Shown piece after piece: positions 12,585-33,380 of a stretch of 36,975 nt of DNA. Made by a program: the position numbers and the translations under genes. Location of the stretch: contig WJJV01000094.1 in assembly GCA_014729495.1 (NCBI GenBank), positions 1-36,975 of the forward strand, in the 5' to 3' direction. Numbering within the stretch: the first letter of the stretch is position 1; every line of letters begins with the position of its first letter. The notes beneath the pieces are model-generated. The model saw nothing but the letters and a program-made list of their open reading frames with translations, made no database searches and was not told the origin of the DNA. This DNA is from Candidatus Woesearchaeota archaeon (GTDB lineage Archaea; Nanobdellota; Nanobdellia; Woesearchaeales; UBA12501).

Positions 12585-13253
12585 ATGAGGGATCAGATGC
12601 TTAAGATAGACCTTCATACTCATGCAGGAAAAGACAGGGATCACGCTCTTGCTTATTCTCCAAGACAGCTCATTGACAGGACAGCAAAGCTTGGATATGA
12701 TATCCTGTCAATAACAAACCATGAAACCTTAACATTCAGCAAGGACATTAAGGATTATGCCAAGAAGAGAGGCATTCTGCTGATTCCAGGGATTGAGAAG
12801 AGAATTGAGAACAAGGAGGTCATAATACTGAATGCAGACAAAAAGGCTGAGAACCTGAGAACATTCAGGGATCTCAAGAGATACAGGGAAACAAAGGATG
12901 TGTTTGTGATGGCGCCCCATCCTTTCTATCCTGACCCAAAAGCCCTTCACTCAAGGCTTGCTGAGAACATAGAGCTTTTTGACAGCATAGAGTTCTCTCA
13001 TTTCTACCTCAGCTGGTGGACATTCAACAGCAGAGCAGCAGAAATTGCAGAGAAGCACAGGCTTCCTCTTATAGGGACTTCTGACTGCCATATGTTTGAG
13101 CAGCTCAACAGGACATACACCCTTGCAGAATCAGAAAAGAATATTCAGTCTCTTTTTGAGAGCCTGAGGAAAAGGAAGATAAAGCTTGTCACAGAACCGC
13201 TGGGTTTGATCGAAGCAATAAGGATTATCACTGCGCTTTATCTTAAGTACTGA
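12585..13253 (+). CDS. PHP-domain metal-dependent phosphoesterase
   Basis: 222 aa; IDLHTHAGKDRDH, LSITNHETLTF, LIPGIE, VMAPHPFYPD and GTSDCHMFEQL motifs. Confidence 0.88.
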   Translation: MRDQMLKIDLHTHAGKDRDHALAYSPRQLIDRTAKLGYDILSITNHETLTFSKDIKDYAKKRGILLIPGIEKRIENKEVIILNADKKAENLRTFRDLKRYRETKDVFVMAPHPFYPDPKALHSRLAENIELFDSIEFSHFYLSWWTFNSRAAEIAEKHRLPLIGTSDCHMFEQLNRTYTLAESEKNIQSLFESLRKRKIKLVTEPLGLIEAIRIITALYLKY

Positions 13254-13355
13254 TGCTCTTTTCAGATACTTTTTATATGATGCTCTGCTGTATGGTGCGG
13301 TAATCTGAACAGCATCAGCACAATATTTATAAATGAAAATTGATTCAGAATAATC

Positions 13356-13946
13356 ATGTCTGTCAAAATAAAGGGGTTGAAGACCAGAGTCAAGTATTTT
13401 GGCATATTTGACTTCAAGCAGATCTACAGGGACGTAAAGGAGAAGCTCCAGGACATAGGTTATCTCAATTCTAAGGAAGGCGCAAAGAACATGATGGAGA
13501 CATATTATTCTGAGAAGAGATCATCTGATCCGAGAGAGGCAAAGACAATGTGGCTTTGGTGGAGGATGCCGAAGAGAGAGGAAGGGTCGCCGTTCTATGA
13601 GCAGAGGTTAGGGATTGACTTCCATCTCAGGTATATCAAGGATGTTGAGGTAATGCTTGACGGAGAGAAGAAAAGGGCTCAGCAGGGAGAGATAGAGGTC
13701 TGGATCAATGGCGATCTTATAATAGACCCTGATGATGAATGGAAGAACCACTGGCTCATGAATCACTTCCTTGATTTCATGATAAGGAGGGTGTGGAGAA
13801 AGCAGAGAGAAAGCAGGAAGAACAGCACCATAACCGATGTCCTCAAGATGCAGGCGTTTGTCAAAGAGTCATTTGAGGTACTGCATTTCATGCCTCTAAA
13901 AGGAGAATCATTCTATGACAGCATGGGTTATAAGCCCAGGCCATGA
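13356..13946 (+). CDS. Conserved hypothetical protein
   Basis: 196 aa ORF with normal codon texture and no strong competing ORF; no family recognised. Confidence 0.7.
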   Translation: MSVKIKGLKTRVKYFGIFDFKQIYRDVKEKLQDIGYLNSKEGAKNMMETYYSEKRSSDPREAKTMWLWWRMPKREEGSPFYEQRLGIDFHLRYIKDVEVMLDGEKKRAQQGEIEVWINGDLIIDPDDEWKNHWLMNHFLDFMIRRVWRKQRESRKNSTITDVLKMQAFVKESFEVLHFMPLKGESFYDSMGYKPRP

Positions 13947-32842: not shown

Positions 32843-33043
32843 GTGGCAATCATTGAATGCATAATAGATGAGAACAAGGCAGAATGCTCATGCACTTATC
32901 CAGGCTGCCCAAGAAAAGGCAAGTGCTGTGAGTGCCTGAAATATCATCTTGCGAACAATGAGCTTCCTGGCTGCTGCTTCTCTCCAGAAGCAGAGAAGAC
33001 CTATGACCGGAGCTTCCAGAAGTTTGCTGAGGATAGATTATAA
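32843..33043 (+). CDS. Small Cys-rich protein (DUF6485-like)
   Basis: ECSCTYPGCPRKGKCCECLKYHLANNELPGCCFSPEAEKTYDRSFQKFAED; GTG start. Confidence 0.75.
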   Translation: MAIIECIIDENKAECSCTYPGCPRKGKCCECLKYHLANNELPGCCFSPEAEKTYDRSFQKFAEDRL

Positions 33044-33069
33044 TTCTGAAAAGATACTCCTAAAATCAT

Positions 33070-33257
33070 AAAAATCCGAGCAATCGCCTACCTGAAACCT
33101 AAAGGTTTCAGTTTGACGGCGATTGTATCTAATATCGGATTTTTAGGATGCGGAAAACCAAAGGTTTTCAGCACCGTCAGAAATGCATAAGCATTTCTGA
33201 GGTTTCCAAAAGCCTTCATCTGAAACATAAATGTTTCAGTTTTCGGCTTTATGGAAA
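33070..33257. repeat. Cluster of nested perfect palindromes (at least three composite hairpins)
   Basis: AAAAATCCGA(CAATCGCC(CTGAAACC-TAAA-GGTTTCAG)GGCGATTG)TCGGATTTTT; GAAAACC-AAA-GGTTTTC; CAGAAATGC-ATAA-GCATTTCTG; AAAGCC(CTGAAACA-TAAA-TGTTTCAG)GGCTTT. Confidence 0.92.
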
Positions 33258-33264
33258 TAAACAT

Positions 33265-33380
33265 AGCCCTGCTCGGACTCGAACCGAGGTCTTCGGACGT
33301 TTTCGATGAAATCGAAAATTGTTCAAAATCTTGATGTCCATCACCAAAATCCGAAATGCTTGCCACTACACCACAGGGCT
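33265..33380 (-). tRNA. tRNA-Gln (anticodon TTG) with canonical-position intron
   Basis: Minus strand AGCCCTG TG GTGT AGTGGCAA GCAT T TCGGA TTTTGG [intron ~45 nt] G TCCGA AGAC CTCGG TTCGAGT CCGAG CAGGGCT; all arms pair and TTG falls at positions 34-36. Confidence 0.92.

Follow-up and report, generated by a model that had tools for sequence, protein, structure and literature searches.

The palindrome-rich DNA between a gene for a Cys-rich protein and a tRNA-Gln gene in the window (the whole stretch of 36,975 nucleotides of a Candidatus Woesearchaeota contig that was analysed) is, to judge from sequence, very probably one copy of a mobile family of structured hairpins. The family itself is quite probably a non-autonomous, gene-less mobile element in archaea of the DPANN/Woesearchaeota type, one that consists of two hairpins, H1 and H2, with a conserved linker between them and AT-rich termini, and whose copies are entered by smaller hairpin modules. 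All the stems named in the first-pass annotation are present in the sequence where it had placed them, and its neighbours are also borne out, the Cys-rich ORF encoding a DUF6485 protein and the tRNA-Gln gene following the palindromes. The features are these:

32843 to 33040, plus strand: Cys-rich ORF of the DUF6485 protein (Pfam PF20095, 1.8e-8), a host gene outside the element.
33063 to 33260, plus strand: whole type-1 hairpin element, 198 bp, oriented by its AATCATAAAAAT end; the span is the extent common to the second copy on contig C66, and the family ends are AATCATAAAAAT ... ATAA.
33070 to 33144, plus strand: H1, three nested stems, from sequence and fold; the same tiers, with covarying stems, are found in 17 genomes.
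33070-33079 / 33135-33144: H1 outer stem, AAAAATCCGA / TCGGATTTTT.
33081-33088 / 33118-33125: H1 middle stem, CAATCGCC / GGCGATTG.
33092-33111: H1 inner hairpin, CTGAAACC-TAAA-GGTTTCAG, with the stem at 33092-33099/33104-33111 and the loop TAAA.
33145 to 33151, plus strand: inter-hairpin linker AGGATGC, conserved; filled/empty pairs in genomes G121 and G173 lie exactly here.
33152 to 33202, plus strand: double-hairpin module, read as inserted: GGAAAACC-AAA-GGTTTTC, a GCAC-type linker and CAGAAATGC-ATAA-GCATTTCTG.
33153-33169: module hairpin 1, GAAAACC-AAA-GGTTTTC.
33178-33199: module hairpin 2, CAGAAATGC-ATAA-GCATTTCTG.
33203 to 33257, plus strand: H2, nested hairpin, TTTCC > AAAGCC > CTGAAACA-TAAA-TGTTTCAG, from sequence and fold.
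33203-33207 / 33253-33257: H2 outer stem, TTTCC / GGAAA.
33209-33214 / 33245-33250: H2 middle stem, AAAGCC / GGCTTT.
33220-33239: H2 inner hairpin, CTGAAACA-TAAA-TGTTTCAG.
33264 to 33380, minus strand: tRNA-Gln gene with an intron (Rfam tRNA, 51.8 bits), overlooked by ARAGORN.
13254 to 13355, no strand assigned: intergenic site, empty in the window, at which the relative G002 holds a type-2 element (alignment of the window with locus L258).

The mobility of the window element is indicated by two observations taken together, namely a nearly identical copy with other flanks and the absence of the element from the orthologous tRNA-Gln locus of a relative. Searching the genome with the element region recovered the second copy (G000:C66:13050-13247), which is 99% identical over 198 bp and lies between dissimilar flanks. 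The comparison of syntenic tRNA-Gln loci that the first-pass annotation had suggested also came out in favour of insertion: G002, a genome of the same genus, has the orthologous tRNA-Gln gene, interrupted by an intron at that position too, and, upstream of it, orthologues of the window's two upstream genes, but what follows the tRNA gene is other DNA, without the element; this empty site is not base-exact because the contig stops about 100 bp past the tRNA. G002 in turn carries an element of the sister type (type 2, described below) between two genes whose orthologues in the window, at 12585-13253 and 13356-13946, have no element between them. Furthermore, three type-1 copies in G121 are letter-identical over 144 nt at unrelated sites with different flanks. 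The copies are intergenic, stand in both orientations relative to the neighbour genes and contain no ORF; type 1 has fixed 5' and 3' ends, and no target duplication was seen in the flanks of about 30 of its copies. Between the window element and the 3' end of the tRNA-Gln gene lie 3 bp.

Some features of the surroundings deserve mention in their own right. Beside the second copy (L016, 3258-5115) lie an HD-domain-like ORF and an ORF with a GGEEF motif (diguanylate-cyclase-like), as judged from translation only; signalling genes of the HD/GGEEF type are uncommon among archaea. The intron of the tRNA-Gln gene (window 33264-33380; L261) contains a hairpin of its own, TTTTCGATTTCATCGAAAA, and the G002 intron, at the same position, has another inner sequence; palindromes are also found in introns of other tRNAs (L138), so that hairpins may target tRNA introns or originate in them.

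Chance palindromes are ruled out by the shuffled folds and by a hairpin census. The element region (203 nt) folds at -85.9 kcal/mol; dinucleotide shuffles give -39.6 on the minus strand (z = -11.2) and -37.4 on the plus strand (z = -12.8), and 0 of 200 shuffles were equally good. A sample of 437 kb of stretches of the window's genome, drawn by contig number, contains 23 hairpin clusters vs 4 in shuffles (about 6-fold) and 15 stems of at least 10 bp vs 3.5 expected (about 4-fold); the shuffled null against which the first-pass annotation had proposed to set its palindromes is thus exceeded. The only four-hairpin cluster in this census is that of the window. In G007, a control relative with no match in the element searches, 80 kb (six short contigs reading N were left out) yielded 1 cluster vs 1 expected. 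An element-rich relative yielded 12 vs 1 expected, a figure biased upward by the choice of stretches that hold matches.

The type-1 pattern AATCATAAAAAT-H1-AGGATGC-H2-ATAA is represented by 33 copies in 17 of the 288 genomes of the order, in several families (the pattern searched was AATCATAAAAAT-H1-ATTTTTAGGATG, and a reversed-pattern control gave 0 matches). Nearly all copies that were read out have the three-tier H1, a TAAA-type loop, AGGATGC and H2, followed by (G)CATAA. The termini, linker and TAAA-type loops are conserved and the stems differ by compensatory substitutions: H1 shows 88 double changes among 27 sequences (shuffled mean 25, maximum 39), a count to which the middle stem hardly contributes because MAFFT aligned it poorly, and which, as all covariation counts here, is not a probability, the rows being kin and not independent. 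The identity of the family appears to reside in the unpaired motifs and the fold and not in the letters of the stems, which drift in a paired fashion. The H2 strands TTCATC and GTTTTC of the window element also occur in other copies (e.g., L273; compare L271).

These observations bear on the view, put forward in the first-pass annotation, that the region grew by stepwise insertion of palindromes into palindromes. For the three stems at 33070-33144 we reject it: the same three-tier nest, with the same loop type, flanking motifs and ends and with differing, covarying stems, is present in 17 genomes. The idea is nevertheless partly right, given that the H1 nest belongs to the shared architecture of the family whereas the two middle hairpins, 33152-33202, look inserted. 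The possibility that the region is conserved as one known ncRNA is ruled out: it is one conserved structured unit but has no match at the Rfam gathering score, at which the tRNAs alone match. Viral spread was considered as well and rejected, two scans of viral contigs for the element having given no match.

Filled and empty copies indicate that double-hairpin modules use the linker AGGATGC as a landing site. Three of the G121 copies have the string AGGATGC|TAAAAGC, whereas another has AGGATGC[53-nt double hairpin]TAAAAGC, with TGC repeated (string check), and in G173 another filled/empty pair has an unrelated double hairpin at the same linker position; in G177, a module is located in H2. The window module, 33152-33202, is missing in all other type-1 copies that were read out, save two that have unrelated double hairpins there, and modules related to it occur in type-2 elements. 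In the type-2 elements of the window's genome, InsA (repeat TTA) is found at two different element positions, InsD lies within the loop of InsC (repeat AT), and both filled and empty copies exist for each of InsB, InsC and InsE (string check); G001 and G008 provide more such cases. That hairpins enter hairpin elements, as first proposed, has therefore been verified string by string in filled and empty versions. The small modules repeat 2-3 bp at entry (TGC, AT, TTA), which are apparent duplications. The InsD remnant reflects a later loss, by deletion between two ATCAA repeats, and because some empty versions are such deletions between short repeats, the direction is not proven for every case. 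It is best shown by InsA, given that this hairpin occupies two places in the element and also has separate copies elsewhere, and insertion is the likely direction for the other modules.

InsA-type hairpins (GATAATCCCAGACGAGCTTGCGAGTCGGGATTATC and similar ones) also directly adjoin tRNA genes (L152, 150-330 and 480-650, in G008; L123 and L138 in G001), where they are nested in a second hairpin and, in L152, flank one tRNA on both sides; tRNA flanks seem to be favoured.

The sister subfamily, type 2, has the architecture ATAATAAAAA-H1-AGTC-H2-TAA, with the ends ATAATAAAAA...TTTTCAATAA and the linker ATTTTTAGTCTTGAAAAT; judged by eye, the two types appear related through a common ATAAAAAT...ATTTTTAG, TAAA loops and the ATAA end. 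Type 2 occupies about 24 places in the window's genome and is commoner there than type 1. The exact 15-mer TTTTTAGTCTTGAAA, a match to the linker, occurs 17 times in this genome, and 7, 7 and 9 times in three same-family relatives; of the order's 284 other genomes, 9 have a single occurrence each. One of those nine, L235, is a true element, with the same sequence as locus L159 of AR15, and the others that were listed have no hairpins around the match. The named carriers are Archaeon GW2011_AR15, Nanoarchaeota MAG Modern_marine.mb.317 and Ca. Woesearchaeota CG10_44_13, which puts the window among DPANN archaea of the Woesearchaeota type; four bacterial records that match the bare type-2 pattern are probable chance matches. 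Over 20 distinct rows of type-2 ends, 94.8% of the cells are paired, a value inflated by the admission of rows with at least 8/11 and at least 9/13 pairs, and 11 pairs are altered on both sides; there are 52 double-changed cells vs 17.7 in shuffles (0 of 500 shuffles as high), and sliding the partners by one column lowers the pairing to 46-58%. About nine of the 24 main copies, that is, about a third, lie at contig ends (C22, C20, C130, C37, C72, C60, C104, C111, C50), so the elements interrupt the assembly, and more copies probably exist than were counted. Type-2 elements range in length from 66 nt for the smallest copy (G002) up to 359 nt (G008). The G008 copies L259, L247 and L111, which have several extra hairpins in H1, are the most heavily nested seen.

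So by what route could such elements be mobilised? To our knowledge, how gene-less hairpin elements move has been an open question since their mitochondrial description. The fixed ends, the lack of duplication and of an internal ORF, the outcome of the searches for Y1 and reverse transcriptase genes and the lack of strand bias, the latter two detailed below, favour a DNA-level route with recognition of structure, and we tentatively propose insertion of folded single-stranded DNA by an enzyme acting in trans. Under this proposal, the element would move as a folded single DNA strand, exposed, for example, during replication; the enzyme would recognise the unpaired ends, linker and loops and would join the strand into AT-rich intergenic DNA, including DNA immediately downstream of tRNA genes. 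Small double hairpins would then parasitise this or a similar machinery and find in the exposed linker a safe place to land. All the genomes are drafts, so the mobilising enzyme could sit in a gap.

A rather doubtful alternative is an RNA route, in which a transcript of the element would fold and then be returned to the chromosome through either a reverse transcriptase or reverse ligation with repair. The strong covariation in both types, the absence of target duplications and the location of some copies just downstream of tRNA genes would all fit, and such a route has been suggested for the hairpin elements of Allomyces for the very reason that they lack the typical target duplication (PMC2800124). 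Against it, the search for RVT_1 found no reverse transcriptase in the window's genome, on which ground mobilisation by that enzyme was rejected, and the copies stand in both orientations relative to genes. Moreover, departures from pairing over both alignments comprise 34 G-T and 24 A-C; with no clear bias of the former over the latter, no single RNA strand appears clearly constrained, and this comparison gave no strand of action.

It is unlikely that the element is a miniature of the IS200/IS605 type, in which H1 and H2 would be the left and right end hairpins and a Y1 (HUH) transposase would act through single-stranded DNA, with AATC as the 5' target side. The two subterminal hairpins, the fixed ends, the missing target duplication and the AT-rich sites are as this scenario would have them, and Y1 genes are found in 6 of 16 type-1 bearers tested, including G121 with its identical copies, and also in G008. 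Among 7 genomes without the pattern, however, 2 have such genes as well, whereas Y1_Tnp (PF01797) is absent from G000 (the window's genome, a draft, 91% complete), G001 and G002, which nevertheless contain many copies. The element ends are lacking at every Y1 locus, that of the G121 IS605 included, and no parent autonomous transposon with the same ends was found among these loci. Mobilisation by RAYT or IS200/IS605 was rejected on these grounds, the lack of a Y1 gene in the window's genome and of element ends at Y1 loci elsewhere.

It is also improbable that arm-to-arm correction, i.e., template switching in quasi-palindromes, and not selection produced the paired changes in the stems, in which case covariation would say nothing on recognition of the fold. 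The many perfect stems and the slippage-type losses between short repeats (the InsD remnant with its ATCAA repeats) are compatible with such a process, but it leaves the dispersal, the fixed ends and the conserved unpaired linker and loops unexplained, and serves more to supplement the main explanation than to replace it. Finally, a multicopy structured regulatory RNA or terminator that is not mobile, although consistent with the conserved architecture, the covarying stems, the intergenic location and a copy just behind a tRNA gene, is most improbable in view of the letter-identical, sharp-ended copies at unrelated sites that differ between genomes of one genus, the variable gene orientation, the lack of an Rfam match and the absence from most genomes of the order.

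Returning to the insertion of a folded DNA strand, one may go further and imagine a distinct class of mobile elements, recognised by fold and unpaired motifs and spread order-wide in DPANN archaea, which would be served by an enzyme that is neither Y1 nor a reverse transcriptase, and whose linker smaller double hairpins would parasitise, a true nested insertion convergent with that in fungal mitochondria; as a whole, this remains a somewhat doubtful possibility.

The likeness to mitochondrial double-hairpin elements, to which the first-pass annotation had pointed, is apt. Like those of Allomyces and the repetitive hairpin-forming elements of sponges (PMC2800124), the present elements are short, gene-less and mostly intergenic, have two hairpins joined by a short linker, and differ in presence between close relatives. 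Unlike them, they reside in an archaeal chromosome (the contig has a topoisomerase, a DHH protein and archaeal-type genes, and the relatives are Woesearchaeota/Nanoarchaeota), their linker, loops and termini are conserved across families of an order, H1 has three tiers, and modules are inserted in the linker. The yeast mitochondrial GC clusters, e.g., GC42, are mobile palindromes bounded by short repeats (AG or ACT), and they merge and shuffle into larger composites (PMC4478555), and the archaeal inserted modules likewise merge and have flanking repeats of 2-3 nt; there is no sequence relation, and the archaeal host element has ends fixed without duplication and stems wholly different between genomes.

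The prokaryotic MITEs, known in archaea from Sulfolobus and haloarchaea (PMC10969869), are similarly small, multi-copy, non-autonomous, AT-rich and intergenic, with stable folds. In the present elements, however, the two termini, AATCATAAAAAT and GCATAA (in type 2, ATAATAAAAA and TTTTCAATAA), do not form an inverted repeat, the element has no target duplication (the small modules alone repeat 2-3 bp) and no parent transposon was found among the Y1 loci. With the REP/RAYT system and CGTC-tagged palindromes (PMC3733652) they share hairpin DNA scattered between genes and a presumed recognition of single strands, but they have no GTAG/CGTC foot, the archaeal feet being AATCATAAAAAT, AGGATGC and ATAA or ATAATAAAAA, AGTC and TAA; the unit consists of two compound hairpins, and no RAYT is present in the window's genome (a draft, 91% complete). 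Rickettsia palindromic elements, of about 150 bp, are palindromic and mobile, too, and insert in frame into genes (PMC10969869), whereas the archaeal copies lie between genes. A double hairpin, TCAGAAATGC..GCATTTCTGAGCATGCTCAAAAACC..GGTTTTTGA, in apparent coding sequence of G059 (L024, about 1500-1560) recalls these Rickettsia elements and is related to the modules.

Our searches of the open-access literature turned up no account of elements of this kind in DPANN archaea. The ingredients are known elsewhere; the combination, the host group and the conservation of shape over letters appear to be new, within the open literature. Covarying stems are usually taken as proof of a functional RNA; where they occur in mobile DNA, as here, RNA-discovery pipelines could be misled. 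With many copies, recent ones that are letter-identical, filled/empty pairs and conserved unpaired motifs in a cellular lineage, it becomes possible to test the ends, the target rule and candidate enzymes. For the archaea concerned, the element family accounts for a class of intergenic DNA in their genomes and, probably, for some of the breaks in their assemblies.
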